This document shows, piece by piece, positions 8,458-27,688 of a DNA stretch of 64,000 nucleotides. The first letter of the stretch is position 1. The number at the start of each line of letters is the position of its first letter. Source of the DNA: Variimorphobacter saccharofermentans (lineage in GTDB: Bacteria > Bacillota > Clostridia > Lachnospirales > Lachnospiraceae). Location of the stretch: the NCBI RefSeq assembly GCF_014174405.1, contig NZ_JACEGA010000001.1, positions 990,001 to 1,054,000 of the forward strand. The letters run 5' to 3'. The position numbers were made by a program, and so were the translations under genes. A model generated the notes under the pieces. The model searched no databases. It was given only the letters and a program-made list of their open reading frames with translations, and had not been told where the DNA came from.

Positions 8458-9239
8458 CAGGCGGTACCACTCAGCTTCTGATTATTAGACATAGCAAGTG
8501 TACGCTGTAAAGCCTCCATAAGATCAATGACATTATTCGGAGCTGAAGTATCCACAGCCACAATGTCCTCTCCATGGATTTTCTGCATGATGGCATCTCG
8601 CAGACGTTCTTGATATTCGTCCTTATATGCAGTAGCATCAAAAGTACCTGTCATTGTATCAATCAGAGTCTTTGCCATAGTGATCTCAGCGTCACTTAGT
8701 TGCACAGGGGGAATTTGCTTCGGAACAGGTACGATCTCATCATGATAGAAAAGTGTCTTTGCGATCATTCCTTCCGATGTCGGATAAAGAACGATAAGAT
8801 TTTCCTTCGTACCGATGACGGTTTTTGCAAGAGCAACTTTTTGCTCATTTAGCATAGCGCTTCGAAGCAGCTCGAATGCTTTCTCTGCACCAGCCTCTGG
8901 AATGGCATAATAATTTTTCTCATAATAAATCTGGTCGATTTCGGATAGCTTGACAAATTGGAGAATATGAATGGTTTTATCTTTTTTCGTCTTGATTTTC
9001 TCCAGCTCTTCCTCGGTCATAATCACATACTTGTCATTTTCGTACTCATATCCTTTAATAATTTCATCCTGTTTTACTTCCTTATTGCAGCTGGGACAGT
9101 ATTTTTTATATTTCACACGCTCTTTCGTATCCTTGCATAGTTGATTGAATTTGACATCATTATCCCTGGTAGTAGTATATAAACCAACGGGAATATAAAG
9201 CAGTCCCAAGGAAATAGCACCCTTGTGTGATACACCCAT
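8457..9239 (-). CDS. ku: non-homologous end joining protein Ku
   Basis: A 260-residue Ku homologue; Ku forms a ring on broken DNA ends and recruits LigD. The N-terminus G-V-S-H-K-G-A-I-S-L-G-L-L-Y-I-P-V and the C-P-S-C-N-K region fit the bacterial Ku core. The short polar tail is typical of sporulating Firmicutes. GGGAGGTG precedes the ATG at 9239. It is the first gene of a two-gene operon with ligD. Confidence 0.93.
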   Translation of the reverse strand: MGVSHKGAISLGLLYIPVGLYTTTRDNDVKFNQLCKDTKERVKYKKYCPSCNKEVKQDEIIKGYEYENDKYVIMTEEELEKIKTKKDKTIHILQFVKLSEIDQIYYEKNYYAIPEAGAEKAFELLRSAMLNEQKVALAKTVIGTKENLIVLYPTSEGMIAKTLFYHDEIVPVPKQIPPVQLSDAEITMAKTLIDTMTGTFDATAYKDEYQERLRDAIMQKIHGEDIVAVDTSAPNNVIDLMEALQRTLAMSNNQKLSGTA

Positions 9240-9449
9240 TTAAGCACCTCCCATTATAAAGACTCATACAGTACATAGGTTATGATTGCATTCATTGAAT
9301 GAATAACATGAAAAGTAAAATCGATATACAGTAATCCTGTTACAAATAGTATGAGAGAAATGAGAAGTAAAAATTCAAAAGAAAAACAGAGTAAATCAGA
9401 CAGAAATATTTATTAAGATGAAGTATGCGAAGGCAAGGTAAACATAACT

Positions 9450-9494
9450 GCGAGTTCGTATTATCATAGCAATGATTTGATAATACGAACTCGC
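9450..9494 (-). terminator. hairpin after the sigma operon
   Basis: GCGAGTTCGTATTATCA pairs perfectly with TGATAATACGAACTCGC. It lies 19 bases beyond the last gene of the ECF operon. The T run after it is weak. Confidence 0.6.
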
Positions 9495-9512
9495 ATAAGA
9501 AGGCGTCTATCG

Positions 9513-9821
9513 TTACCACACAACCCTAACATGGGACTGGGCATAAGTGATACATAAATCAGTAAAAGCCATTCCCATAGCAAAGAAGGATAGGATAATA
9601 ATCAATGCAAATGCTGTTTTATCATAGACGAGTTTGTCTTCCTTCTGTGAGAAATTAGCTATTAAGATTTCCAATCCTAAAAATATAAATACAACAGGCC
9701 ATAATTTAAAAATAATATCGTAGGATAATGCCGGTATGAAAATGCGAAGGAGAAATAATATACCAAAGACGACCAGCATTCCACCTAGCGTAATGGTTCC
9801 TACCCGATGAACTTTTGTCAT
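9513..9821 (-). CDS. small membrane protein with LiaI/LiaF-like helices
   Basis: 102 residues with three predicted membrane segments (about 10-30, 36-54 and 70-92). The pattern of L-W-P-V-V-F-I-F-L-G-L-E-I-L fits the DUF5668/LiaF-type transmembrane module of envelope-stress proteins. It is the last gene of the ECF sigma operon and overlaps the previous gene by 4 bases, which supports a membrane-stress role. The exact function is unknown. Confidence 0.75.
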   Translation of the reverse strand: MTKVHRVGTITLGGMLVVFGILFLLRIFIPALSYDIIFKLWPVVFIFLGLEILIANFSQKEDKLVYDKTAFALIIILSFFAMGMAFTDLCITYAQSHVRVVW

Positions 9822-10381
9822 TGTTCATTACCTCCTTTATCCTCTAGCATACGTATTTGCTCTTTCGTATCAAGATCCTTTTTCTTTCCTCTGATCAGAT
9901 AAATACCAAGCAGAATAATTAAGAAGCCGATGAACAGCTGAGGGAAATAATGACCAAAGCGATATAATGCATTCCGTAATACATCAGGAATGAACCAGCG
10001 GATCATCTCGTACATATTATTCCATAAAATTGAAATACCAACCACAATTAATGCAATGGCCAATACAACACGATATTTGCTTTGAAGCTGCATCATATGT
10101 TCCTTGGCGGTGTCTGGAAGAAGGATATAGTTGTCTTCCATAGCGTAGAATTCATCGTCGGGCATGGAACGGAGATTATGCGTATCAAAGAAAGAAAAAA
10201 ACCATATGATCGGCATCGCCAGCATCAGGGATCCGACATTGAGCCAGACACCCAGAAATATAAGAAAGAAGAATATGGACATAAGACTTAATCCACGCTT
10301 CATAAATCCCATGTACATTTGCCCTGCACCGGGCAGTAAAGAAAAGCAAAAAGTTAAAAATCCGCTTTTTTTTCTAATCAT
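9818..10381 (-). CDS. membrane protein of the ECF sigma operon
   Basis: 187 residues. The N-terminal half has the pattern L-L-P-G-A-G-Q-M-Y-M-G of TM2-like proteins, followed by several membrane helices, a polar middle, and a C-terminal helix pair ending in a charged tail. It overlaps the anti-sigma gene by 8 bases and the next gene by 4, so all are co-translated. A part in envelope stress is inferred from the operon only. Confidence 0.75.
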   Translation of the reverse strand: MIRKKSGFLTFCFSLLPGAGQMYMGFMKRGLSLMSIFFFLIFLGVWLNVGSLMLAMPIIWFFSFFDTHNLRSMPDDEFYAMEDNYILLPDTAKEHMMQLQSKYRVVLAIALIVVGISILWNNMYEMIRWFIPDVLRNALYRFGHYFPQLFIGFLIILLGIYLIRGKKKDLDTKEQIRMLEDKGGNEQ

Positions 10382-10886
10382 GTTCAGTTACCTCCGTTTT
10401 CATAATTTTATTTGAAAAATCCATCATGTTTGAACTAAAATCATCCAGGTTCTCTCTGATCACAGATGTCCAGGAAGCTGAGGAGTTATCCAATTCATCA
10501 TCCATGGACATTTCCTGTGAAAGTGGTATTGCCTGCTTGGAAGAAGCATTTTCAGCCGGTATATTTGTTGAAAGAAATAACAGGAGTAATGCAGCAACTG
10601 CAGCAGTACCGATCTTGAGGCTATAAAAGAATAATTGCATGTTTTTTGAAGTCTCATTTGCCTTCATTGCAATCTGAATGTCCGGACGTTTTGTAGCTTT
10701 TAATATACTATCCTTTAAGTTCTTGGGCGCTTGAAGCATCTCCTCGGACATAATATCAGCCAAGCGTTCAGAACAGTAGTTACAGGAGCTTACATGGGAA
10801 AGTAATTGCTCTAATTCTTCCTGATTCAAACAGTTATTTCGGAAGTTTAATAAATCTTGTTCAGAAATATGTTGATTATCATTCAT
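10374..10886 (-). CDS. zinc-finger anti-sigma factor
   Basis: 170 residues. The N-terminal part carries H-V-S-S-C-N-Y-C, the H-x3-C-x2-C motif of zinc-binding anti-sigma domains, near residues 31-38. A single membrane helix follows at about 86-107 and a roughly 60-residue outer domain completes it. This is the layout of membrane-anchored anti-sigma factors that hold an ECF sigma factor until an envelope signal arrives. It overlaps the sigma gene by 8 bases. Confidence 0.85.
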   Translation of the reverse strand: MNDNQHISEQDLLNFRNNCLNQEELEQLLSHVSSCNYCSERLADIMSEEMLQAPKNLKDSILKATKRPDIQIAMKANETSKNMQLFFYSLKIGTAAVAALLLLFLSTNIPAENASSKQAIPLSQEMSMDDELDNSSASWTSVIRENLDDFSSNMMDFSNKIMKTEVTEHD

Positions 10887-13806: not shown

Positions 13807-14307
13807 TTGAATAACGATAATGTAGATAATAACAAACAAACGCAACATAGGTATATGAAGAGTCAGCAGATATTTCAGGGGGGACCAGGAAGACCCTCTG
13901 ATCGCCCAGGCACGGACCAGCAAAGAAGACCTGCGGATCGGGACAGTGACGATAATCGGATAGATTTTACACCAGGTCCCCAAGGGCAATTTCCCGGTGC
14001 AGAAGCTGCACCAAGATCAGCCCCACCTAATTTTATTCCTGAGGCACCACAGATGGAAAGCCGCACGTTTGGTGCTCCGGGGAGACCGGGGGTTCCGGTT
14101 TCACCGCAATTCGGATTTGTTAGACCGGGGCAGATTCGCAGGTGTATTCACCGGTATACCTTTATATGGCTAGTCAACGGTAATAGCTTCTGGTTCTATC
14201 CAACCTTCGTGGGGAATCAATTTGTTCAGGGATTCCGCTGGAGAAGGAACCGTTGGGAATTTGAGAGGATTAATCTGAGAAGAATCTTATTCTTCCGCTG
14301 TTTCTAA
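13807..14307 (+). CDS. Pro/Gly-rich protein of unknown function
   Basis: 166 residues with no recognised domain. Residues 20-105 are rich in proline, glycine, arginine and glutamine and look disordered. The last 55 residues are aromatic and arginine rich (W, F, Y and R-W-R-R-N-R-W), a pattern seen in short clostridial surface or spore proteins. The start appears to be TTG at 13807, with AAAGGGG about 6 bases upstream; a nearby ATG at 13802 stops after two codons. A terminator follows. Confidence 0.65.
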   Translation: MNNDNVDNNKQTQHRYMKSQQIFQGGPGRPSDRPGTDQQRRPADRDSDDNRIDFTPGPQGQFPGAEAAPRSAPPNFIPEAPQMESRTFGAPGRPGVPVSPQFGFVRPGQIRRCIHRYTFIWLVNGNSFWFYPTFVGNQFVQGFRWRRNRWEFERINLRRILFFRCF

Positions 14308-14328
14308 GAAAATATGAGTCGAATCGAA

Positions 14329-14365
14329 AATAGCATGAGCCTAAGGATTGTAGCTCATGCTATTT
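14329..14365. terminator. two-way terminator between convergent genes
   Basis: AATAGCATGAGC pairs with GCTCATGCTATT, flanked by A-rich and T-rich tracts. It serves the Pro/Gly-rich gene on one strand and the pseudo-ATPase operon on the other, overlapping the latter's stop. Confidence 0.8.
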
Positions 14366-15778
14366 ATTTTCTAATACTCCATTACGAAGATATAATATCT
14401 TACCATTAATCGAACTAAATGATGGCCAACTGGAGGTTATAATTAATATAGCGATACCGCGCTCAGAAAGTAAAGTAATTAATTTCTCTGTGAGCTGATT
14501 TTGAGCATCGGCAACTGAGAACGGTTTCACACAAATAAGAAGTTTTGGATTGTATAATAGCCATTTACAGTAAACTATTTTCAGCTGATCATCAGGGGAG
14601 AGTGCACTTAAGGTATGCTTTAGCTTTTCTGGATCAAGAATATCCTGTAATTGTATCTCCATACTTTTTTTGTACCTGTTTTTGAGCCAGAACCATTTGA
14701 CTTTATTACTGAGGGGATAGCTTAGATTATCAAAAGCACTTAGGTTTTTGAATAACATTCTTTCGATCGAGTCCTCTTCCACAAAACCTATATCATTCTT
14801 ATAATTCATGTAACCGTACATAGGTTTAAAATTATGACCCTCCAGTAGAATGTTACCAACAAATGAGGTATGTTCTCCTTTTAGTACGGAGATAAGTCTA
14901 TTAACGCTGGTTTCATCAGTATAAAGAATGCGGACAATTTCACCCTTATGAACTTGAAAGCTTATATTTTTTAATATATCATCGGTTAAGTTATGAACTG
15001 AAAAAATCTCATTGCTTGAATTATTGTTATATTTGTACCTGTGTTGAATATCAGTATTTTCCTGATCGTAATAAAAAATACGATATAAGGTATCCTTATT
15101 AATCTGTTTAGAATCAAAGATTCCAATGGTATTACCACCCTTAATAATGGTTAAGCGATCGGTATACCGGAGCTTCATATCTTCAATATTATTAATTACT
15201 AGAAAAGAAAGTCCTTTTTTCTTTAACTTATCAATCAGATTGAAGATAGAAGCAACCTCAATGCTATTTAGTATATTTGTTATATTAGAAAGAACAATTA
15301 ACTTGCGTTCTAAAGCATAAGCGGTCATCAATTCAATGACTACACCCTCATATATTGTCAAATCTTTTACTGGTTTATCCAGTGGGATATCAATATTAAA
15401 ATACTCGAATAAATTCCTGGCGCATTTGTAATAATGCTTTGGATTAAGGTACAAAATATGAAATTGTGAAAAATATATATTTTCATATATAGTGAGGGTA
15501 GGGATCAGATGTCTAGTCTGATCGATTAAAGCAACATGATTACGAAGCTTTTTATTGATATCGGCATCCTTTATCAAGTTTTCCATGATATAGACTTTAC
15601 CGTAACTCAGTTTTAATTCTCCGCATAGCAGTTTTATTAATACGTTCTTCACTTCGGTACTATCAAGAATGATACCATGTGTTTCTGATTTTAATACTCT
15701 TAAATTAATGTTTTCAATCAACATACGATTGTGATAGGTTAGTGTTCCGTGATTAATTCTGAACAATTCTTCTTTCAT
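14360..15778 (-). CDS. catalytically dead two-domain ABC ATPase homologue
   Basis: 472 residues with the two tandem ATPase folds of sugar-import ATPases such as RbsA/MglA. It aligns along its length with the intact ATPase at 22780-24303, but both sites are destroyed. Where the active enzyme has G-E-N-G-A-G-K-S, this has L-D-S-T-E-V-K-N. Walker B I-L-D-E-P becomes V-L-S-N-I in the first half and L-I-C-V-K-P in the second, and signature and H-loop residues are gone. The frame is intact, so it is kept for a non-catalytic role. It is third in an operon after the response regulator and kinase. A role as adaptor sensing the transporter is inferred. Confidence 0.8.
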   Translation of the reverse strand: MKEELFRINHGTLTYHNRMLIENINLRVLKSETHGIILDSTEVKNVLIKLLCGELKLSYGKVYIMENLIKDADINKKLRNHVALIDQTRHLIPTLTIYENIYFSQFHILYLNPKHYYKCARNLFEYFNIDIPLDKPVKDLTIYEGVVIELMTAYALERKLIVLSNITNILNSIEVASIFNLIDKLKKKGLSFLVINNIEDMKLRYTDRLTIIKGGNTIGIFDSKQINKDTLYRIFYYDQENTDIQHRYKYNNNSSNEIFSVHNLTDDILKNISFQVHKGEIVRILYTDETSVNRLISVLKGEHTSFVGNILLEGHNFKPMYGYMNYKNDIGFVEEDSIERMLFKNLSAFDNLSYPLSNKVKWFWLKNRYKKSMEIQLQDILDPEKLKHTLSALSPDDQLKIVYCKWLLYNPKLLICVKPFSVADAQNQLTEKLITLLSERGIAILIITSSWPSFSSINGKILYLRNGVLENK

Positions 15779-15795
15779 ATACAGAAGGCCCTTCC

Positions 15796-16791
15796 TTATT
15801 CCATAATCTTTGGGAGAGTAATATGCACATCAGCTCCAAACCCCAGAGTACTATAGACGTGAATACCATAATCTTCACCAAACAATAGCTTAATTCGCTG
15901 AGATACGTTCCGAAGAGCAATGCCACCTTTTGATTTAATTTCTTCATGGGTTGTTGGTATGGCTGCTTCTTCCAATGATGCATTCAATCGACTCAGGGTT
16001 TGAGGTGGTATTCCTAATCCGTTATCGGAGACAGTAATTAATAAAGATTTATTTGTTGTTTCAATCTCAATCGTGATACATCCACCCTCTACCTTCCCTT
16101 CTAAGCCATGAAAAACAGCATTTTCAATAATGGGCTGGAGCGTTAACTTTGGAAGTCTTAATAATGTAACATTCTCCTCATTTTCTGGAAAACGTATATT
16201 CATTTTAATTTTGTCATCAAAGCGATATTGCTGAATTTTAAAGTAGTTCTCAGCGTTCTGTAATTCGTCTGCTAATGTTACCAAGGCTTTTACCTCTGTG
16301 ATAGTATAGCGAAAGAAGGAAGATAATGCCTCTGTGGTTTCGGCAATGCTTGTTACACCTGCATAGATAGCATCACCACGGATCGCCTCCAATGTATTGT
16401 ATAAAAAGTGAGGATTAATTTGATTTTGCAATGCAAGATATTCCGCCTGCTTCATAGATAAATTGATCGCATCCTGCTTATCCAACAGCTGATAAAACTT
16501 ATTCATCACCAGGGCTGACTGAGCTGTAAAGGGAATATTCTCTTTAAATAATTCCTCATATATCTTTCCTTCAACAAATAAATGATAAAGCCTATTATTA
16601 AGATTTATGGAACGTATTACAAATAAATAATATAAGAAGAGAAAAATAATGTTCAAAACTACACCAATTATAGTATAGGGTAGTCCCTCTGGAATATTGT
16701 TATGAGAACCCATAATCCAAAGAAGATTAAAGGCTGTCTGTATAGAAAGAAAGAGGATGACTCTAGGCATAATGGGTATGGATTTCATCAT
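15796..16791 (-). CDS. sensor histidine kinase, YesM type, without sensor domain
   Basis: 331 residues. Two membrane helices (about 10-27 and 39-60) are joined by only about ten residues, so there is no extracellular sensor, unlike ordinary YesM kinases. A cytoplasmic linker leads to the His_kinase motif Q-I-N-P-H-F-L-Y-N-T-L with His128, then an ATPase domain with N-box I-I-E-N-A-V-F-H-G, G1 D-N-G-L-G-I and G2 G-G-I-A-L-R-N-V. It should phosphorylate the adjacent response regulator. With no outer domain, the signal must come through the membrane part or a partner protein, possibly the neighbouring dead ATPase. Confidence 0.9.
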   Translation of the reverse strand: MMKSIPIMPRVILFLSIQTAFNLLWIMGSHNNIPEGLPYTIIGVVLNIIFLFLYYLFVIRSINLNNRLYHLFVEGKIYEELFKENIPFTAQSALVMNKFYQLLDKQDAINLSMKQAEYLALQNQINPHFLYNTLEAIRGDAIYAGVTSIAETTEALSSFFRYTITEVKALVTLADELQNAENYFKIQQYRFDDKIKMNIRFPENEENVTLLRLPKLTLQPIIENAVFHGLEGKVEGGCITIEIETTNKSLLITVSDNGLGIPPQTLSRLNASLEEAAIPTTHEEIKSKGGIALRNVSQRIKLLFGEDYGIHVYSTLGFGADVHITLPKIME

Positions 16792-16811
16792 GGTATTATT
16801 CTCCCCTCATA

Positions 16812-18413
16812 TTAGGAATAAAGCTTACGGTATTCAGAAGGACTTAACCCGGTATATTTCTTAAACTTCTTATTGAAATACTTCATGTCATTAAATCCAC
16901 ATTGCTCTGCAACATCATAAACACTAATTGACGTGTTCACCAGGAGATTCTTAGAGTTCTGAACGCGTACCTCCGTAAGATAATCAATAAAACTGGCTCC
17001 GGTTTCTTTTTTAAATACACTGGAAAAATAGGTTGGATTTAATCCAATAAAAGAACCGATAATTTCTAGAGTGAGAGGCTCCTTATAATGTTCATTTATA
17101 TATTGCTTTGCTTGTCTTATAGGCTTTGAATGTGCTAATGCTTTTTCGTTCTGCCATTCACTTAAGTAATTAATCAGTCTATCATTCAAGTACTGGAAGC
17201 ATTCATCAATACTTGTAAATCGATTAAAATTTTCATTAAAATCTTCTTCTATTGTTTTTAAGTCAAGATTAATGCTATTACTTTTCACACTGAATAAGAA
17301 GAGGGATACAATTTCGTGATAAATATCAAGTACATACTTACCGTCGATCGGAGAGGTATGTTTTAAAGTTTCTTGTATGGTCTTCAGTAGATTAGATAAA
17401 TTGTAAAAATCTAAAGTTTCTACATATATCATAAAATCTTTACGAAAGCTGTTTCCAAGGACATGATCGATAGAAGGTACCTCGGGATGCGGTTTATACA
17501 TCAGTGGAGTATCAATATTATAAAATAGTTTGTTCATTAATACATATTCGACCTGCTGCTTAAGAATAGGAACTGTATTAATTTCACTCATGCGTTCACT
17601 AAGAGCTATGATTGGCCGAATTCCATCAAAGACATCTTTGAAACTCAATATCAAGGTACGTAATTTTTGAAGGTCCGTTTTCAATGAAGAAAATTCTTCA
17701 TCTGTACCATTGATGAGACAATACATAGTACCACAAGAATAAGTGAAGACTACCTCATGATAAGAGGAGAAGGTTTCTGAAATAGCATCCTGTACTTTAG
17801 AATTAAGGAATCCGATTGTCTGAGTATTTGGTATGGGATTAAGATGAATCTGAAGTCCAATCATCTGATATAGGCCTTCAATAAAATTACAAAAATAGGT
17901 ATCATTTATACTTTGTATATGATATTGAAACGCCATACCTGCTTCGAACATATCGGAAAGAAGCTTGCTTTTCACCTTTCGTCCGCTTTGGTCCAACATT
18001 CTTCGCATATTCTCTGTCTGTATAATATTCTTTTTCACTAAATCGAGCTCTGATTTGATTTTATCCAGGGTTTGAATCAGCTCTTTTTTCTTAATGGGTT
18101 TTAAAAGATAATCATCTACTCCATACTTTATGGCGGTCTGAGCATAGGAAAAATCACTATAACCACTTATGATAATAAAGTGGGTATTATAACTGATATT
18201 TCTCGTTTGTTGAATTAGTTCCAACCCACCGAACTCAGGCATTCTTATATCGGTAATTACGATATCTGGATTTTTCTCTTGAATAATTTGGAAAGCAGAT
18301 AAGCCGTCATTAACATATCCCAGCATTTCAAAGCCAAGGGACTCCCAATCAATTAAGTATTGAATTAGACGGCATACTCGGATTTCATCATCGACGATTA
18401 ACACCTTTAGCAT
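16812..18413 (-). CDS. response regulator, YesN/AraC type
   Basis: 533 residues: receiver domain (1-120) with phosphoacceptor Asp55 in I-V-I-T-D-I-R-M-P, a long middle region, and a C-terminal AraC-type double helix-turn-helix (about 435-533). First gene of the operon with the kinase and dead ATPase, and divergent from the glycyl radical enzyme operon, which is its likely target. AGGGAGG precedes the ATG. Confidence 0.92.
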   Translation of the reverse strand: MLKVLIVDDEIRVCRLIQYLIDWESLGFEMLGYVNDGLSAFQIIQEKNPDIVITDIRMPEFGGLELIQQTRNISYNTHFIIISGYSDFSYAQTAIKYGVDDYLLKPIKKKELIQTLDKIKSELDLVKKNIIQTENMRRMLDQSGRKVKSKLLSDMFEAGMAFQYHIQSINDTYFCNFIEGLYQMIGLQIHLNPIPNTQTIGFLNSKVQDAISETFSSYHEVVFTYSCGTMYCLINGTDEEFSSLKTDLQKLRTLILSFKDVFDGIRPIIALSERMSEINTVPILKQQVEYVLMNKLFYNIDTPLMYKPHPEVPSIDHVLGNSFRKDFMIYVETLDFYNLSNLLKTIQETLKHTSPIDGKYVLDIYHEIVSLFLFSVKSNSINLDLKTIEEDFNENFNRFTSIDECFQYLNDRLINYLSEWQNEKALAHSKPIRQAKQYINEHYKEPLTLEIIGSFIGLNPTYFSSVFKKETGASFIDYLTEVRVQNSKNLLVNTSISVYDVAEQCGFNDMKYFNKKFKKYTGLSPSEYRKLYS

Positions 18414-18910
18414 GTTTTTCCTCCCTAACTAATAAGCATAACAATAGTTAACTCCGAATACAGACTTGTTTCGGAATTATATTATTCTGTTCCCCACCAT
18501 TACATCTTACTTTTATCCCATGGAAGAATTTTATCCTTGTTTTGATGAAAACAATCCCCTATGCTAAAAATGATCCCCAATTTTTTATGATATACAATAG
18601 ATTATCTAGAGTAGCTACATTAATCTTATCATATGATAAGATTATATTTGAAAAAGGGTATTAATTCAACACATTGTTCGTAAAAATTATATAAAAAAAT
18701 AGGATAAATGAAAAAATAACATAAAAAATGCACAACATCTAAAGATTGTTCCCCTTAATATAAAGATAGTAAGTTTTCGAAAAGAGTATCAAATGCTATG
18801 ATAACTATACAAATTAACCAAGGAGCTCAAAAACAAAATGACCTACGGTGAGAATACAAAGCAGCTATGAATGGTTAATGACTATTGAATTACATAAGGA
18901 GGTTTCTATT
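18414..18910. promoter_or_regulatory. divergent control region of the glycyl radical enzyme locus
   Basis: About 500 bases without a gene. It holds a perfect 22-base palindrome at 18622-18643 (AATCTTATC, ATAT, GATAAGATT) and a candidate rightward promoter, TTTTCG (18774-18779), 17 bases, TATGAT (18797-18802). The poor -35 suits activation by the response regulator. Two CCCC-containing boxes occur near 18554 and 18750. AAGGAGG at 18897-18903 is the ribosome site of the enzyme gene. A weakly placed upstream in-frame start at 18848 has no such site. Confidence 0.55.
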
Positions 18911-21148
18911 ATGAAAGAAATTGATTCGTTTCAAATTGGTACACAACCGGTTCGGACGGAGCGTATTGATAAACTTTACAAATACGTTACATCATTTGAA
19001 TACGGTATTTGTGCTGAAAGAGGTCATCTATTAACAGAGTTCTATAAGGATAACATGAATTTGCCCCCGATAGTGCGAAGAGCGAAAGCGATTGATTATG
19101 TACTTGAGAACATGAGTATTTATATTATGCCAGGAAGCTTATTCGCCGGAAATCATGCTTCCAAACCCAGATGGGCTCCGCTCTTCCCGGAATTCGAAGT
19201 TGAATGGGTAGAAGAGGAGTTGTTGAAAGGAAATCCATATTTTCCGTGGGAAAGACCAGCTGATCGCTATACACTGCAGGAAGAAGATAAGCCATTAATT
19301 AAGGATATGTGTGACTGGTGGAAAGGAAAAACCCATACGGATACACTCCGGGCAAGATTACCAAAAGAAGCACTTATTACTCATTATGATTTAAAAGCAG
19401 CGGATATCGGTACCTATTTCCAAGGTGGTGATGGTCATTTTGCACCGGATCATGAATATTTAATCAATCACGGCGTACAAAAGCTGATTGATGATTGTGT
19501 AAAATATCGTGATGAGCTTGATTGGAGCCAGCCGGATACGATTAAGAAAAAGGATTTCTATGACGCTGCCATCATTAGTGCAAATGCAATAATCAAATTT
19601 GCAGCAAGATATGCTGATTTAGCTGAAAAAATGGCATCTGAGGAAAAGGATGAAACACGTAAAAAAGAACTTATGCTGATTGCTGATACCTGTAGATGGA
19701 TTCCAAAGAATCCGGCAAGAAATTTCTATGAAGCATTACAGTTTATCATATTGACACATATTTGTATTCAAATTGAAGACAGTGGTGCAGGAGTATCCTT
19801 TGGGCGATATGATCAGTATATGTATCCATTCTATAAAAAAGGAATTCAAGACGGAAGCCTAACAGATGATCTGGCATTAGAACTGACCGAGAATTTCTTC
19901 CTTCAGATTTATACCTGTAATAAGGTAAGAAGCTGGATTGATACGGACTTTTATCGTGGTGTACCGATGTTCCAGAATCTAACGATCGGTGGACAGGATC
20001 CGATTAAGAAATGTGATGCTACCAACGAATTAAGTTATATTTGCCTGGATGCAACCTATCACACCAGAATTCCTCAACCATCCTTAACAGTACGTTTTCA
20101 TAAGAATACTCCATATGAGTTTAAAATCAAGGTAGCTGAGGTAATTCGATTAGGTACTGGACTACCATCCATTTTCAACGATGAAACCTATATTCCGGCG
20201 CTAATGAACCGTGGTTATGAATTGAATGATGCATATAATTATTGCATTATCGGTTGCGTTGAACCTGGCACAGCCGGACTGCTGGGAGGAAGAACTGGCG
20301 GAGCCTGGTTGAACTGTACAAAGGCATTGGAAATGTCCCTCTACAACGGACTGGATCCAAGAACCGGTATATGCCTGCATACCAATAAAGATAATAAAGA
20401 TCTTGCAACATTTGAAAGTTTTGATGAAGCAAAGGAAGCATACTTAAATCAGATTGCTTACTACATAAAGCAGGAAGCAATTCTGGAGAATACCATTGAT
20501 CAGGTTTGGGAGGAAACATTGGAAGAGCCCATGGCTGCCATTTTTGGTTGTACTACCACCACAATTCCGAGAGGAAAGCCGATTAAGCAAGGTGGAGCAA
20601 AATATGACTTAACTGGACAGCAGACAATCGGTACAGCTAATGTTGCAAACAGCCTATATGCAATAAAGAAATTAGTGTTTGATGATAAAGTAATCACCGG
20701 AGCACAACTGAAGCATGCATTACTAACTAATTTCTCCGATATGGAAACAAAGCCTACTGGTCCACAGATAAAAGCACTTTGCCTTGGAGTTCATAAGTAC
20801 GGTAATGATATTGATGAGGTGGACGAGCTTGCGAGAGAAATGTTAGCGTTTGTAGCAAATGAGTTGAGTAGTTATAAGAATACAAGATATGGAAGAGGAC
20901 CGATTGGAGGTACACTTCACTGTTCCACCAGTACGGTATCCAGTAACACACCATTTGGTAAAGTATGTGGAGCAACTCCGGATGGTCGTGAAGCATATAC
21001 TGCGGTGGCAGATGGTCAATCGCCAATGAGAGGAACGGATGTCAGCGGACCTACTGCAGCAATAGCATCTGTAGCAAAGATTAATAACATTTTATTATCC
21101 TGTGGTTCCTTATATAATATGAAGTTCAGCCCATCAGACCTGTGTTAA
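18911..21148 (+). CDS. glycyl radical enzyme, large fragment lacking the radical loop
   Basis: 745 residues covering the ten-stranded barrel of a glycyl radical eliminase (glycerol dehydratase, choline lyase, hydroxyproline dehydratase group). The active-site thiyl cysteine is Cys449 in G-C-V-E-P-G, with Glu451 as the expected base. The chain stops at S-P-S-D-L-C, exactly where relatives continue into the C-terminal glycyl radical domain. That domain is encoded by the next gene, 49 bases on. The two products should assemble into one enzyme. Start ATG 18911 follows AAGGAGG by 7 bases. Substrate unknown; the operon's ribose-type transporter suggests a sugar, polyol or similar small molecule. 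No aldehyde dehydrogenase or shell genes are adjacent. Confidence 0.88.
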   Translation: MKEIDSFQIGTQPVRTERIDKLYKYVTSFEYGICAERGHLLTEFYKDNMNLPPIVRRAKAIDYVLENMSIYIMPGSLFAGNHASKPRWAPLFPEFEVEWVEEELLKGNPYFPWERPADRYTLQEEDKPLIKDMCDWWKGKTHTDTLRARLPKEALITHYDLKAADIGTYFQGGDGHFAPDHEYLINHGVQKLIDDCVKYRDELDWSQPDTIKKKDFYDAAIISANAIIKFAARYADLAEKMASEEKDETRKKELMLIADTCRWIPKNPARNFYEALQFIILTHICIQIEDSGAGVSFGRYDQYMYPFYKKGIQDGSLTDDLALELTENFFLQIYTCNKVRSWIDTDFYRGVPMFQNLTIGGQDPIKKCDATNELSYICLDATYHTRIPQPSLTVRFHKNTPYEFKIKVAEVIRLGTGLPSIFNDETYIPALMNRGYELNDAYNYCIIGCVEPGTAGLLGGRTGGAWLNCTKALEMSLYNGLDPRTGICLHTNKDNKDLATFESFDEAKEAYLNQIAYYIKQEAILENTIDQVWEETLEEPMAAIFGCTTTTIPRGKPIKQGGAKYDLTGQQTIGTANVANSLYAIKKLVFDDKVITGAQLKHALLTNFSDMETKPTGPQIKALCLGVHKYGNDIDEVDELAREMLAFVANELSSYKNTRYGRGPIGGTLHCSTSTVSSNTPFGKVCGATPDGREAYTAVADGQSPMRGTDVSGPTAAIASVAKINNILLSCGSLYNMKFSPSDLC

Positions 21149-21197
21149 GAACGATAGGATAAGACTATTATAACTATTTTAAGAATGGAGGATAATT

Positions 21198-21449
21198 ATG
21201 TCAGAAGTAATGATTAATAAAAATGATGGATTGGCTAGATTTGTAAGCTTAATCGACCGATATTTTGCGGCTGGCGGAGCCCAAATGCAATTTAATGTTG
21301 TGAGTAAAAAGACACTTCTGGATGCACAGAAAAATCCGGAGAAATATGCTAATCTTCTTGTTAGAGTTGCTGGATACAGTGCTTACTTTACTCAGTTATC
21401 CAAGGACGTTCAAAAGGATATTATCGAACGTACTGAAGAAAAAATATAA
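21198..21449 (+). CDS. separate glycyl radical domain protein
   Basis: 83 residues matching only the C-terminal domain of glycyl radical enzymes. R-V-A-G-Y-S-A-Y-F places the radical glycine at Gly59, and the upstream Q-F-N-V-V-S-K-K-T-L-L-D-A-Q-K motif is typical of the eliminase class, not of pyruvate formate-lyase. It has its own GGAGG and ATG. It differs from the rescue protein YfiD/GrcA, which supplements an already complete enzyme: here the neighbouring large subunit has no such domain. It should be the target of the activase encoded at 25386-26357. Confidence 0.9.
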   Translation: MSEVMINKNDGLARFVSLIDRYFAAGGAQMQFNVVSKKTLLDAQKNPEKYANLLVRVAGYSAYFTQLSKDVQKDIIERTEEKI

Positions 21450-21505
21450 TAGGGGAACAATAAAATACTATGAATGCCTGATGAACAGGCAGCAGGAGGG
21501 TAATT

Positions 21506-22624
21506 ATGAGGAAAAGAATTATATGTTTCGTTATTGGTGTTTCAATGATTTCAACCATGCTTTTTGGATGTACTTCCGCAACAGAACTAAAGCAGGCAGG
21601 TACCTCTAATAGCGATGAGAAGAAGGTAGAAGCTTCGGGAGAAGTTTTCTCAGCAACACCGGAGCAATTGGCTTTATTACCGGAAGAAATGATTGGTGAA
21701 AAAGATCAGTTTAAGGGCTTGAAGATTGGATTTTCTCAAAGAAACATTGCAGGCTCAGAATGGTGGGAGCAGTTGGTCAGACTTGCTGAGGATGAAGCGA
21801 AACACTTAGGTATTGAATTAACCGTTTATGACGGTGGTAACGATTTAACAAAACAGTTAGCTGATATTGAAACATTAGTGAACTTGCAGCCGGATGCTAT
21901 TATTGTTAATCCTTTTCATTCTACAGGAGTTCTTCCTGCAATTGAAAAAGTTCATGCTGCGAATATTCCTTTAACAGTAGTTAACTGTGCACTCGATGCT
22001 GAAGGATCTCCCTTTACATTTGTATCCTGTGATGTTGAAAACAGTGGTTATCAATCAGGTTATCAACTAGCAAAATCCTATGATGAGAAATATGGTTGGC
22101 AGGATCAGGTACAGGCATTGGTATTATCTGCAGCTGCTCAGGAAGAAGAATCTGACTTAAGAAGATGGGGTCAGATTGCGGGTTACAACGATTATATGCT
22201 TGAGAAATATGGACAATCCAATCTTGATATCGTAGCTTACCGCTATTATAACTGGCAGCCTGAACCTGCTATGAATGAGACACTGGATGCATTACAGGCA
22301 AATCCGGACCTTGATATTATATTTGCAGCATGTGACGGTGGTGCACAGGGTGTTGTAGCTGCTCTTGACTCAGTTGGTAAAACTGGTGACATCATGATTA
22401 CGTCTATTGATGCTAGAAAATCTGTATTAGAATGGATTAAAAACGGTGATAAGGGTGTCGTAGGTACTGTAGCGAATGATCCCAGAATGATGGGTAAATG
22501 GGCAGTGTATTTGGCAGCACTTCAAGCAACTGGTGTAACAACACCTTCTACCTTCTACGTTCCCAATACATTATATACAGCTGATAACGTAAATACTGTG
22601 TATGATCCTAATTCAACATATTAA
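21506..22624 (+). CDS. sugar-type ABC transporter substrate-binding lipoprotein
   Basis: 372 residues. The lipobox L-F-G-C gives Cys22 as the lipid-modified residue. After a 40-residue linker follows a periplasmic-binding fold of the ribose/galactose family (F-S-Q-R-N-I-A-G-S-E-W-W, then D-A-I-I-V-N-P). The nonstandard Q-A/W-rich binding region makes the ligand hard to guess. It is placed between the split enzyme and the transporter ATPase, so it likely captures the enzyme's substrate. GGAGGG precedes the ATG. An intercistronic hairpin follows. Confidence 0.92.
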   Translation: MRKRIICFVIGVSMISTMLFGCTSATELKQAGTSNSDEKKVEASGEVFSATPEQLALLPEEMIGEKDQFKGLKIGFSQRNIAGSEWWEQLVRLAEDEAKHLGIELTVYDGGNDLTKQLADIETLVNLQPDAIIVNPFHSTGVLPAIEKVHAANIPLTVVNCALDAEGSPFTFVSCDVENSGYQSGYQLAKSYDEKYGWQDQVQALVLSAAAQEEESDLRRWGQIAGYNDYMLEKYGQSNLDIVAYRYYNWQPEPAMNETLDALQANPDLDIIFAACDGGAQGVVAALDSVGKTGDIMITSIDARKSVLEWIKNGDKGVVGTVANDPRMMGKWAVYLAALQATGVTTPSTFYVPNTLYTADNVNTVYDPNSTY

Positions 22625-22703
22625 TCAGATAGTATGATACAGATACTAATTAAATATTAAGATATTATTTGTTTCCCAATTATTAACAATCCCCTTATAA
22701 TAT

Positions 22704-22740
22704 GCTCTGGTAGCGGTCCCCCCCAGATCGCTACCGGAGC
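22704..22740 (+). promoter_or_regulatory. intercistronic stem-loop
   Basis: GCTCTGGTAGCG pairs with CGCTACCGGAGC around a C-rich loop, with no T run after it. Such stems after binding-protein genes usually stabilise the upstream mRNA and limit read-through into the transporter genes. Confidence 0.7.
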
Positions 22741-22779
22741 AATAGATAAAATATAGTTTGACATAAAGGAGTTGGGTAT

Positions 22780-24303
22780 ATGGAGCGTTCCAAGGCAATT
22801 GAGATGAAAAACATTACTAAAAAATTTTCCGGTGTTAAAGCCTTGGATGATGTCACCTTCAGTGTACAGCAGGGTGATATTCATGCCTTAGTTGGCGAAA
22901 ATGGTGCAGGAAAATCCACTTTGATGAATATATTAAGCGGTAGTTATTCACATCATACAGTGGAGGGATGTGTTTTCATAAATGGTCAAGAAGTAAAACT
23001 TAATAATCCGAAAGAAGCAAATCAACACGGAATAGTAATGGTTCATCAGGAACTTGCTTTAATCCCGGAACTGAGTGTTGCTGAAAACATGTTTTTAGGT
23101 AATATGCCATTGAAAAATGGAATGATCGATTGGAAAACAATGTACACCAAAGCAATGGAAGCACTTAAAAGACTTTCACTTGATATTGATGTACATTTGA
23201 AGGTAAAACATTTAAGTGTTGGTCATCAACAATTAGTAGAAATTTCAAAAGCAATTCTAATGGGCGGAAAGGTTATGATATTGGACGAACCAACGGCACC
23301 CCTTACCGGAAGAGAAATAGAATTCCTTTTTAAGGTTCTACGACAACTTAAAGAAGAAGGAATCACCATAATTTATATTTCTCATCGATTGGAAGAGATT
23401 TTTGCTTTAACAGATACTGTATCAGTAATGCGTGATGGCAGAATGATTACAACGAAAAAAACCTCGGAGGTCAGTGAGCATGATCTTGTTTCCTTCATGA
23501 TAGGCCGTGAGATGGAGGATTTCTATCCAAAGGAAAAGACAATGATCGGAAATACCATATTATCGATTAAAAATTATTGTGTAGCTCATCCGAACTATCC
23601 GGGTAAAAATATAGTAAATGATGTAACTATGAGTTTTAAAGCTGGTGAAATTGTAGGGATTGCAGGACTACTTGGAGCTGGTCGAACGGAATTAATGTCC
23701 GCATTAATTGGAGCATATACACAGAAGGGCTCAGGAATTGTAGAATTGAATAATAAAGAGGTAAAAATTAAAAATCCACGACAAGCTATAGGATATGGGA
23801 TAGGTTTCGTCTCTGAGGATCGTAAGGGGAATGGTCTCATATTAAAACAAACAATCGGCTTTAATACCAGTCTGGCTGCACTTGATCGAGTAACTAAGAA
23901 TCGCCTTCTGAATAAAAGAAAAGAGGAAAAACTTACACTGGATATGATTGATAAGCTGAAGATTAAGACTACAAATTATATCAATCCGGTCAAAAGTCTA
24001 AGTGGTGGAAATCAGCAAAAGGTTGTATTAGCCAAATGGATGGCGACGGATCCTAAAATTCTCATACTTGATGAACCAACCAGGGGCGTTGATGTTGGAG
24101 CAAAATATGAAATATATAGTATTATGAAGAAGCTTGCCCAGCAAAATGTAGCAATTATTATGATATCCTCTGATATGCAGGAAATCATCGGAATGAGTGA
24201 TCGTGTATATGTTATGTATGAGGGTAAGGTATCCGGCGAACTAAAGAGAGATCAGTTATCAGAAAAAGCGATAATGGAGTATGCAGCTGGTGCCGCATGC
24301 TAA
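22780..24303 (+). CDS. sugar ABC transporter ATPase, two-domain
   Basis: 507 residues with tandem ATPase domains of the RbsA/MglA family. Domain 1 has Walker A G-E-N-G-A-G-K-S-T and Walker B I-L-D-E-P-T. Domain 2 has the family's G-L-L-G-A-G-R-T variant, signature L-S-G-G-N-Q-Q-K and I-L-I-L-D-E-P-T-R-G. It powers import through the permease downstream. Comparison with this intact protein is what shows that the homologue at 14360-15778 is dead. Confidence 0.94.
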   Translation: MERSKAIEMKNITKKFSGVKALDDVTFSVQQGDIHALVGENGAGKSTLMNILSGSYSHHTVEGCVFINGQEVKLNNPKEANQHGIVMVHQELALIPELSVAENMFLGNMPLKNGMIDWKTMYTKAMEALKRLSLDIDVHLKVKHLSVGHQQLVEISKAILMGGKVMILDEPTAPLTGREIEFLFKVLRQLKEEGITIIYISHRLEEIFALTDTVSVMRDGRMITTKKTSEVSEHDLVSFMIGREMEDFYPKEKTMIGNTILSIKNYCVAHPNYPGKNIVNDVTMSFKAGEIVGIAGLLGAGRTELMSALIGAYTQKGSGIVELNNKEVKIKNPRQAIGYGIGFVSEDRKGNGLILKQTIGFNTSLAALDRVTKNRLLNKRKEEKLTLDMIDKLKIKTTNYINPVKSLSGGNQQKVVLAKWMATDPKILILDEPTRGVDVGAKYEIYSIMKKLAQQNVAIIMISSDMQEIIGMSDRVYVMYEGKVSGELKRDQLSEKAIMEYAAGAAC

Positions 24304-24360
24304 GAGAATAAAATCTATGTAGAAAGGTTATGCCGCAAAGGCATAGAATGGAGGTATACT

Positions 24361-25335
24361 ATGTCAGGATATGATATGACAGGGGGATTAGCTACTACTT
24401 CAAAGAAAAATATAGTAGGGAACTCACTAGGATTTATCAAAAATAATTTTGTAGTAATAGCCTTTATTGCACTAATAATCTTTGGTAGCATTGCGTCTCC
24501 TGCATTTTTAACAGTTAGTAATATTAAGACTGTTTTATTACAGAATTCAATCTACGCTATATGTGCATTAGGTATGTTATTTATTGTTATTACAGGAGGT
24601 ATTGATCTTGCAGTCGGTTCCTATGTAGTAGTAGCAGTTTGTTTTACAGCCGGCTTCATACAAGAAGGAAGAGGTTGGCTAGCAATCATTCTTGTAGCAG
24701 TAATGAGTATAGTATTTGGTTTGATCTCTGGAGTTCTCGTAGCATATGCAAAGGTAGCTCCATTTATTGCTACACTAGCGATGATGACGATATTAAAGGG
24801 TATTGCGTATATCTATCAGGTAGGTCAGAATCGTAGAATTGATGGTACCTTCTGGCCAGAATTTATTCAGGGTAATATCCTTGGTATTCCTTCTCCTGTT
24901 TTCATTTTATTCATTGTATATATCATTGTTGTGTTTATGCTTAAGAAAACAAAGTTCGGCCGCGGAATTTATGCAATTGGTGGTAATTCTGAGACAGCTA
25001 GGCTTGCTGGAATTAATGTTAAGAAATATCTTGTAATTACATACTCATTAGGTGGCTTGCTATTTGGCATGGCTGGAATGATACTTGCCGGAAGACTCAG
25101 TATGGGTACAGCTACTGTTGGTGACGGTTATGAGTTGGATGCGATAGCAGCGGTTGTTGTCGGTGGTGCGACTCTTTCAGGTGGAGTGGGTAGTCCTACA
25201 AAGACACTAATTGGTGCCTTCCTGATTGGCGCATTAGGTAATATCATGAATCTGGTAGGAATAGCATCTTACCCACAGATGATTATTAAAGGTATTATCA
25301 TTGTAGCAGCAGTATTAATGAACCGTGATAATTAA
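24361..25335 (+). CDS. sugar ABC transporter permease
   Basis: 324 residues with about nine membrane helices and the RbsC family loop G-G-N-S-E-T-A-R-L-A-G-I-N-V-K that contacts the ATPase. The channel partner of the proteins encoded at 21506 and 22780. GGAGG lies 7 bases upstream of the ATG. Confidence 0.93.
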   Translation: MSGYDMTGGLATTSKKNIVGNSLGFIKNNFVVIAFIALIIFGSIASPAFLTVSNIKTVLLQNSIYAICALGMLFIVITGGIDLAVGSYVVVAVCFTAGFIQEGRGWLAIILVAVMSIVFGLISGVLVAYAKVAPFIATLAMMTILKGIAYIYQVGQNRRIDGTFWPEFIQGNILGIPSPVFILFIVYIIVVFMLKKTKFGRGIYAIGGNSETARLAGINVKKYLVITYSLGGLLFGMAGMILAGRLSMGTATVGDGYELDAIAAVVVGGATLSGGVGSPTKTLIGAFLIGALGNIMNLVGIASYPQMIIKGIIIVAAVLMNRDN

Positions 25336-25385
25336 ACTATGCTTTTGTTATCGAATGGTTAAGAAGTGAAGAAGGAGATGCAAAC

Positions 25386-26357
25386 ATGGTTAACTATACA
25401 GGAAATAAAACAATAGCTTCTGAAATCCTTAATAAAAAAGGCATGGTATCAAATATTGAACGGTACGCGATAAATGACGGCTTTGGTCTGAGAACAACAG
25501 TATTTCTCAAAGGATGCCCGTTACGTTGTAAATGGTGCAGTAATCCTGAAACTCAGAAATTTAACTGTGAAATGGTTTTTTTTGAGGATCAATGTATCGG
25601 TTGTGGAGAATGTGTAAAGCTTTGTCGTTATGGTGCATTGGATAATGGTCTGAAGGCTGACCGGTCAATTTGTGACAAATGCTATTTGAGGGAGGATGCT
25701 TTTTCATGTACTCTAAAATGCTATCCTCAATGTCGCAAAATTGATGGACAAGAAATGACTGTAAAAGAAGTATTTGATGTGGTTAAGCGGGATATACAGT
25801 TTTATCATCTAAGTGGTGGAGGAGTAACTATATCCGGCGGAGAACCATTGGCTCAACCAGAGTTTACATTAAATCTATTACAAACATTTAAGCAGAACTA
25901 TATCAATACGGCAATTGAAACTTGTGGATATGCTCGAGAAGATGATTATGAAGCAATTGCTCCTTATCTAGATATGGCGTTTATGGATTTAAAGTCAGCA
26001 GATACTGTAAAACATGAAGAGTGGACTGGAGCAAGTAATGCAAGTATATTAAATAATATTATAGTGATGGATGAGCTTTCAAAAGAATATGGGTTTGATT
26101 TTATCATCCGTACGCCAGTCATTCCAGGATTTAATGATAGCGCTCATGAGATACAGTCTATTGGAAAGTTTGTTACTGAGAATTGTAAGAATTACAAAGG
26201 AATGGAACTGTTACCGTATCATAAGCTGGGACGTGGAAAGTATATAAGCCTTGGTCGTATATATGAATTAGAAGGATTGAAAGCCCCATCAGATGAACAG
26301 ATGAATGAGTTACATAAAATTCTTATTAATATGGGAATCAATTTATATCAGTTTTAG
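25386..26357 (+). CDS. glycyl radical enzyme activating enzyme
   Basis: 323 residues. The radical SAM cluster motif is C-P-L-R-C-K-W-C (Cys44, 48, 51). A ferredoxin-like insert with C-I-G-C-G-E-C-V-K-L-C and further cysteines at about 96, 99, 108, 112 and 116 marks the activase type used by eliminases, not the short pyruvate formate-lyase activase. G-G-E-P-L-A binds S-adenosylmethionine. It should abstract hydrogen from Gly59 of the small protein at 21198. Last gene of the operon; a terminator follows. Confidence 0.94.
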   Translation: MVNYTGNKTIASEILNKKGMVSNIERYAINDGFGLRTTVFLKGCPLRCKWCSNPETQKFNCEMVFFEDQCIGCGECVKLCRYGALDNGLKADRSICDKCYLREDAFSCTLKCYPQCRKIDGQEMTVKEVFDVVKRDIQFYHLSGGGVTISGGEPLAQPEFTLNLLQTFKQNYINTAIETCGYAREDDYEAIAPYLDMAFMDLKSADTVKHEEWTGASNASILNNIIVMDELSKEYGFDFIIRTPVIPGFNDSAHEIQSIGKFVTENCKNYKGMELLPYHKLGRGKYISLGRIYELEGLKAPSDEQMNELHKILINMGINLYQF

Positions 26358-26407
26358 TTATGATTAAGATAAACCAGTAATTAATAATATTGCGTAATAT
26401 ATTAGTA

Positions 26408-26434
26408 GGGACAATTATGGAAAGTAATTGTCCC
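26408..26434 (+). terminator. terminator of the glycyl radical enzyme operon
   Basis: GGGACAATTA pairs perfectly with TAATTGTCCC around a 7-base loop, followed by T-rich sequence. Confidence 0.75.
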
Positions 26435-26482
26435 TGTTGATGTATTATGTAACATCCATAATAATTCTCTTTTCTTAAAATA

Positions 26483-27289
26483 TTACCTCTTATCAAGAAA
26501 ATCCTTATCGACTACATCTGATATACTATCAGAATGACGTTTCTTTATAAATATCGCGATGATCAGTAGCAGAATACTGATCCATTGTGACACGGATAAT
26601 CCAAGGAGAAATCCTCGAGCACTGTCTCCCCGAAGAAACTCCATAATAAACCTCATAATACTGTATAGAATAAGGTAGCTTGTAAGAATAGCTGTGGCAC
26701 TCTTCGCTTTTCTGGCTGAATAATATAGGAATAGAAATATACCGAAGTTAACAGCACTTTCTAATAATTGTACTGGAAATAAGGATACCTCATTAGGAGC
26801 AACCAATGAACGATGGAATACGATATGCATCCACCCTTCATAGGGAATACCATAGCAGCAGCCTGCGAAAAAGCATCCTATTCTGCCAAAAGCATGTACC
26901 AGTGGTACAATGGGAATAATCGTTGCAATCATACCGGTGGTTGGAACCTGGTATCTACGACAGTAAAATAGCATCAAAAGAAAACCGGCGATAAAGCCTC
27001 CATAAAATACGAAACCACCCGACAAGAGGGAGATCAACAGTTGATAGTCATGTATAATTCGATCGATGTTCTGAAGGATTAACGGAAGCTCAATAATCAG
27101 ATATAATAGCTTACCACCAACAATAAAACCGATGATACCATAAATGATAGCAAATATTACATCTTCATTTTTGATCGACATCCTGCGAGCCAGAGATAAA
27201 GCAACGATGGTACCAATGATGACACCAATTAATATCATAAGTCCGTATAAGGCGATGGTATGTCCAAGAATAGTGACTTCAGGTAGCAT
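26483..27289 (-). CDS. lgt: prolipoprotein diacylglyceryl transferase
   Basis: Attaches diacylglycerol to the lipobox cysteine of prolipoproteins in the membrane. 268 residues with seven predicted helices and the Lgt signature H-A-F-G-R-I-G-C-F-F-A-G-C-C-Y-G near residues 137-152. GGAGG precedes the ATG at 27289. Single gene. Confidence 0.93.
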   Translation of the reverse strand: MLPEVTILGHTIALYGLMILIGVIIGTIVALSLARRMSIKNEDVIFAIIYGIIGFIVGGKLLYLIIELPLILQNIDRIIHDYQLLISLLSGGFVFYGGFIAGFLLMLFYCRRYQVPTTGMIATIIPIVPLVHAFGRIGCFFAGCCYGIPYEGWMHIVFHRSLVAPNEVSLFPVQLLESAVNFGIFLFLYYSARKAKSATAILTSYLILYSIMRFIMEFLRGDSARGFLLGLSVSQWISILLLIIAIFIKKRHSDSISDVVDKDFLDKR

Positions 27290-27347
27290 TGATTCCCTCC
27301 ATTAATACAGTGTAGGAATTTTGGTGAATTTTCTTATACATGAAAAG

Positions 27348-27405
27348 GGCTGTTGTATAATATATTACAGAGAATTAATCTCTGCTGATACATTTCGCAA
27401 CAGCC
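27348..27405 (-). terminator. long hairpin after the DUF4190 gene
   Basis: GGCTGTTG pairs with CAACAGCC, with an inner AGAGATTAATTCTCT stem. Arms resemble those of the 29289-29470 element and the purL terminator. Confidence 0.65.
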
Positions 27406-27418
27406 TCTCCAATTATTA

Positions 27419-27688
27419 TTATGCTAATGATGCAAGTGCGCCTACACAAGCAACACATGCAATGAAGGAGATTGTACAAATAGCTAAGCTAATGATACTA
27501 AGTACAACACCTGCGGTAGCCATTCCGGAAGGATTCCTTTTCTTTGAATCCATACCTAAGATTAATCCTACGATTGCCAAAACAATTCCTAATATAGCGC
27601 CATATCCAAAGAAAATGCAGATAAATGATACAATACCAAGAACTAAAGAGGCTATCGCTTTGCCGTCTGCTGGTCTCTTATCTTCCAT
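27419..27688 (-). CDS. DUF4190-type small membrane protein
   Basis: 89 residues with two long hydrophobic helices and the G-K-A-I-A-S-L-V-L-G-I-V opening plus G-V-V-L-S-I-I-S-L typical of DUF4190 proteins. Function unknown. GGGAGG precedes the ATG; a hairpin lies past the stop. Confidence 0.75.
   Translation of the reverse strand: MEDKRPADGKAIASLVLGIVSFICIFFGYGAILGIVLAIVGLILGMDSKKRNPSGMATAGVVLSIISLAICTISFIACVACVGALASLA

Follow-up and report, generated by a model that had tools for sequence, protein, structure and literature searches.

A probable two-chain glycyl radical enzyme of the eliminase type encoded beside a sugar importer in Variimorphobacter saccharofermentans

The window, a stretch of 64,000 nucleotides from the genome of Variimorphobacter saccharofermentans, contains a gene for a large catalytic chain directly followed by a short gene for a glycyl radical domain. 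This pair lies between a divergent regulatory gene set and the genes of a sugar importer and an activase, arranged as follows.

15796..16791, minus strand: sensor histidine kinase (Pfam)
16812..18413, minus strand: response regulator of the AraC type, divergent (Pfam)
18896..18902, plus strand: AAGGAGG 5′ of the large chain, read from the sequence
18911..21148, plus strand: large catalytic chain with a PFL-like barrel, 745 aa from ATG, with the C-terminal end ..LYNMKFSPSDLC before the stop codon (ORF, Pfam)
20255..20263, plus strand: codons Cys449 (predicted thiyl) to Glu451, motif GCVEP, aligned to Cys433/Glu435 of 1r8w and counted by hand
21149..21197, plus strand: spacer of 49 bases from stop to start, with GGAGG at 21187-21191, 6 nt before ATG, read from the sequence
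21198..21449, plus strand: small chain, 83 aa, glycyl radical domain (ORF, Pfam)
21372..21374, plus strand: codon of the predicted radical Gly59, motif RVAGY
21506..22624, plus strand: ribose-type solute-binding protein (domain and structure matches)
22780..24303, plus strand: sugar ABC importer ATPase (domain matches)
24361..25335, plus strand: ABC importer permease (domain matches)
25386..26357, plus strand: glycyl radical enzyme activase, radical SAM, TIGR02494 at 335 bits (NCBIfam and Pfam profiles)

An earlier note on this DNA, made from the sequence alone, had placed the active-site Cys449 and Glu451 in the large chain and the radical Gly59 in the small chain, and the ORF translations confirmed these positions. 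The Cys-x-Glu pair of the eliminase (dehydratase) class was present as GCVEP, with both residues invariant across the 46 rows of alignment A1; the glycine loop RVxGY was also present, but on the separate small chain. Pfam detected the PFL-like domain in the large chain (PF02901, E 7e-190, 633 bits) and divided the Gly_radical domain between the two products, positions 1-44 (25 bits) falling in the large chain and 46-106 (E 1e-21) in the small chain. Because the domain continues across the break with a single joint position absent, nothing was counted as missing there. The earlier statement that the large chain ends just before the radical domain therefore stood in part: the stop falls inside Pfam Gly_radical, yet ahead of the segment corresponding to YfiD's structured half, where comparison with solved structures aligned small-chain residues 24-79 with YfiD 67-122. 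The small-chain stretch before residue 24 would form a helix. The small gene has its own ribosome site inside the spacer, as had been claimed; the lack of a homologous remnant in the spacer proved uninformative, since all Pfam domain positions bar the one at the joint are present. The fold predicted for the window's junction RNA did not surpass that of shuffled sequences (z 0.67), the spacer contained no terminator-like site, and no Rfam family matched within 14000-27500 of the window.

A scan of named genomes yielded 20 relatives, and the 15 with at least 74% identity (L036-L050), which include Ruminiclostridium cellobioparum, Anaerobium acetethylicum, Diplocloster agilis and Muricomes intestini, were compared with the window. 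Both chains were readable in 13 of these 16 sequences (the window and 12 of the 15 loci); L043 and L049 leave the contig inside the large gene, and L046 reaches the hinge on a contig that ends before the small gene. The same split was thus found in several genera, and the break fell at an identical residue in 13 of 13 readable sequences, the large chain ending one residue past the motif KF.P..L. Each of the 13 has two ORFs, whereas glycyl radical enzymes normally carry both parts on one polypeptide. The view that this is an organised split and not a simple frameshift was upheld by the conserved break, by spacers that vary in length (27-134 nt) and in relative frame (all three frames, in 4, 3 and 6 of the 13), and by low median pN/pS in both genes (0.17 for the large and 0.14 for the small chain, 78 pairs each, at synonymous sites near saturation). 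A Shine-Dalgarno-like purine-rich stretch lay ahead of the small gene in all 13.

Among the best 120 of 3943 large-chain relatives, 109 stop at the hinge, nine are fused and two are cut short. The radical motif was found in none of the 90 among these 120 with at least 62% identity, of which 88 stop 1-2 residues past the hinge motif and two are cut short, and a further 21 of the 120 carry the motif GCAEP at about 55% identity and end 1-3 residues past the hinge. The small chain had 1021 relatives at E ≤0.001 within the length limits of the search; among the best 120 of these, which were examined, a small chain is named in records of Blautia wexlerae. Since the same arrangement recurs in related bacteria, the two-part form is probably a genuine enzyme rather than a broken gene.

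The earlier note had named a complete paralogue elsewhere as the finding that would mark the two genes as unrelated remnants, and the organism's own genome shows no complete member of the large-chain family. Elsewhere in this genome, Gly_radical matched three proteins: two are intact and, by similarity (63-66% to a PFL-family protein), pyruvate formate-lyases (PFLs), whereas the third, of 724 aa, has no match to the PFL-like barrel. The small chain is 64-75% identical to the radical domains of the nine fused relatives, versus 38-41% to the corresponding domains of the two PFLs in the same genome as the pair.

The history of the split was assessed in a 48-row tree that excluded the hinge columns and left out L056. 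Three changes between the split and fused forms were needed, each forced by well supported branches, and a single clade of all split rows plus P0213 was rejected (p-AU 3e-8); from the rejection and the forced changes it follows that the split arose at least twice, or was undone. One clade of the window's group and the L062 group was not rejected (p 0.33). Five changes were needed in a 71-row tree without L065, L072 and P0238, in which P0262 was labelled split though it ends differently. In the second group, the small gene lies behind the large gene in L056 and L061, and P0258 is a fused form inside this group. The large chain of L062 bears a 19-residue tail, and its spacer is longer. P0213, a fused near relative of L062, has a linker that matches the L062 tail and the leader and start of the small gene and includes an apparent ribosome site translated as protein; because of this match, its sequence suggests a re-fusion of the split form, the presumed direction of change.

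Three loci (L041, L042 and L047) have two large genes each, 82-92% identical and both with GCIEP, together with one small gene, the first large gene of L041 being cut by the contig start. The Diplocloster agilis genome (G048; positions as in the genome of L042) likewise combines two large genes of this kind with a single small one. If both large chains work, they must depend on the same radical chain. The large-chain family was uncommon among the sampled species, with matches in 2 of 392 genomes of the order at E 1e-170 (its own genome among them), in 2 of 391 genomes of the class for a second-group query at 1e-200, and in 10 of 398 genomes of the phylum for a fused query at 1e-200. Four of these ten matches are at least 57% identical (the own genome, L061, L062 and L063), and the rest are 45-47% identical and fused. 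No plasmid copies were found at E 1e-150.

Gene neighbourhoods were compared in 15 sequences, namely the window and 14 loci, some cut by contig ends, with clusters drawn at 45% identity. The large chain was present in 15, the binding protein and the ATPase in 13 each, the permease in 12, the activase in 11 and the histidine kinase in 10; the response regulator cluster (at least 45% identity) occurred in 6 and a second regulator cluster in 3. The small chain was present in 11 of 15 in the cluster count, in which overlapping frames were dropped, and in 13 by motif search. L039 had no permease or activase from the window's clusters. Among solved structures, those that scored best with the binding protein are annotated as binders of ribose or other monosaccharides. 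Other neighbours vary: L038 has an arabinose isomerase and an FGGY kinase; L042 has a glyoxalase-like protein with a short-chain dehydrogenase; L073 has a ROK kinase, a class II aldolase, a phosphoglucose/phosphomannose isomerase and a 1-phosphofructokinase; and, adjoining the fused L075, there are a sulfoquinovose-isomerase-like protein, an aldolase and an FGGY kinase. These varying genes point to sugars and nothing more specific. An ABC-ATPase-like protein (window 14360-15778, minus strand), whose first domain lacks a Walker A motif by eye, adjoins the sensor kinase and has relatives in L037, L038, L040 and L044; it is perhaps a signalling partner. In L040, a 439-aa ORF on the opposite strand (9084-10403, minus) lies between the small gene and the binding protein, and its GLDVHK stretch may mark an IS110-type transposase.

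The best-scoring solved relatives of both chains were the B12-independent glycerol dehydratase 1r8w and the diol dehydratase 5i2a, which have the same Cys-x-Glu but are one chain; the break of the window pair corresponds to residue 710/711 of 787 in 1r8w. Asp447 of 1r8w, the diol-dehydratase aspartate, is replaced by Gly463 in the large chain (alignment, counted by hand), and the assignment therefore stops at the eliminase class. YfiD/GrcA and T4 Y06I are likewise stand-alone radical domains that work with a truncated enzyme and an activase, according to the cited sections of PMC8683613. These proteins rescue a one-chain PFL cut by oxygen, whereas the neighbouring gene in the window is itself truncated and the two genes are paired, at variance with the partner that defines an autonomous cofactor; the small chain also lacks the 60-residue disordered N-terminus of YfiD/GrcA. 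NCBIfam GrcA3 (NF038360) is another stand-alone radical domain of ~80 aa, but of the PFL type, and the small chain scored far under its cut-off (76 of 158 bits), as it did under those of GrcA2 (56 of 145) and GrcA (50 of 170). The split class II ribonucleotide reductase NrdJa/NrdJb is similarly a two-chain radical enzyme with both chains required, in the cited part of PMC4520616, but it is a cobalamin enzyme with a different domain. Searches of the open-access literature showed no description of a split glycyl radical enzyme.

A comparable arrangement was observed for PFL elsewhere in the order. The Diplocloster agilis genome also encodes a 709-aa PFL without a radical domain, a separate PFL-type radical domain of 81 aa scoring above the GrcA3 cut-off, and a PFL activase. 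Used as a query, the 81-aa domain matched in 233 of the 295 genomes scanned from the order. Short frames of 80-141 aa encoding the domain alone made up at least 60 of the matches, spread over at least 53 genomes, and 32 of the genomes so counted had no other match at E 1e-12. A PFL core stopping at the equivalent hinge lay upstream of the domain in 30 of 30 loci fetched from the order scan. The core was also upstream of four of six further stand-alone domains from genomes behind named loci, which gives 34 of 36; L114 and L115 had no truncated PFL core in the 1.5-kb flank. Representative features are the following.

L080:3643-6859, minus strand: split PFL, core and stand-alone GrcA3-type domain, then the activase; split PFL also in L082-L113, L122 and L123
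L086:1234-1458 and L113:1195-1398: examples of a third ORF between core and radical domain

The third ORF (54-84 aa as read) was present in 29 of the 34 split-PFL loci, and in the remaining five the core tail is longer (25-37 versus 10-24 residues). Its first half resembles the radical domain, and most copies have a Cys motif like SLDC...AC.VPTL in place of the glycine loop. With a radical-domain HMM, 24 of 29 outscored the best of 1450 shuffles; of three tested, none reached the Pfam cut-off and all three matched GrcA3 weakly (E 0.0003-0.006), and the one compared with the PDB had no match. The window genome's own PFLs are intact. Anaerobium acetethylicum has three PFL-like proteins, and the sole one with a PFL-type radical domain is split (radical-domain match 84%; the next, 49%, is in an intact 871-aa protein). 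The large chain of this split PFL has a computed mass of 75.8 kDa from the ATG preceded by a Shine-Dalgarno sequence, or 76.1 or 77.3 kDa from earlier starts, near the 75.7-kDa formate C-acetyltransferase reported with 13 peptides in the proteome (cited part of PMC5270724), a tentative link by mass that concerns the PFL-type and not the sugar-type pair. According to the same part of that source, this organism makes formate, little on glycerol and more on sugars, and its authors did not find formate dehydrogenase genes.

Together, these results make it very probable that the pair forms a C-O eliminase-type glycyl radical enzyme built of two chains, one that would act on an imported sugar or polyol; the two-chain character, as the earlier note had proposed, follows from homology and from the PFL:YfiD precedent in the cited sections of PMC8683613. 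The large chain would supply the barrel with Cys449 and Glu451, and the strand, the glycine loop and the C-terminal helix of the radical domain would come from the small chain, docked at the place of the C-terminal domain in one-chain enzymes. The activase encoded nearby would place the radical on Gly59, which would then oxidise Cys449. An unphosphorylated sugar or polyol delivered by the neighbouring importer is the probable substrate. Small chains may further be exchanged or shared between large chains. Separate supply, activation or replacement of the radical part after oxygen damage, also proposed earlier, may occur; the loci that pair two large genes with a single small gene are compatible with it without proving it. 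The cited sections of PMC8683613 report that oxygen cuts glycyl radical enzymes at the radical, with loss of activity, that the opening of the radical domain for activation is largely unexplained, and that YfiD and Y06I are the only spare parts validated for PFL. In the same sections, PFL truncated at 695 reached wild-type activity with YfiD once activated, but its YfiD binding was no longer measurable and activation fell 32-fold; the two-chain form may thus cost affinity.

Two open reading frames where one is usual could reflect a frameshift, a sequencing error or a decaying gene, an explanation we regard as practically negligible in view of the identical break in independent assemblies from several genera, the low pN/pS and the ribosome-site-like stretch in every readable sequence. 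Recoding by stop read-through or a programmed frameshift, which would restore a fused protein, is very improbable: the two genes share a frame in 4 of the 13 sequences, but the use of all three frames, the broad range of spacer lengths, the unstructured window junction and the lack of Rfam matches argue against it. It is also improbable that the small protein is a GrcA/YfiD-type spare part for oxygen-damaged PFL or other intact enzymes, beside a dead or separate neighbour. The radical domain does stand alone, and some of the best 120 of 1021 homologues are named GrcA by their sources; against this, a truncated large chain under low pN/pS precedes the small gene in 13 of 13 readable sequences, and the small chain resembles the fused kin rather than its own PFLs and falls under the GrcA family cut-offs.

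It is quite possible, if somewhat short of probable, that a tolerant loop was split by neutral accident, giving a two-chain enzyme without exchange, repair or sharing. The hinge is a loop of varying length, and fused kin persist; as nine of the best 120 homologues are fused, the split is unnecessary for the chemistry. Many hosts of the split pair are presumably anaerobes, judging by their names, which we counted in favour of neutrality. Three observations speak against it: a single origin was rejected, so that splits were repeated or one was reversed; some loci pair two large genes with a single small gene; and PFL is cut at the equivalent place. A broader reading is more tentative, and we consider it rather unlikely: an exchangeable radical protein in the order, one small chain serving several catalytic chains and renewable after oxygen damage, which would have evolved more than once at the same hinge, both in a sugar eliminase and in PFL, the latter with a glycine-less domain mimic that may hold the site.

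For the favoured reading of a two-chain eliminase, the natural separation of the chains would permit direct measurement of radical-domain docking, activation and exchange, and it suggests that an annotated spare-part gene can encode one subunit of a split enzyme.
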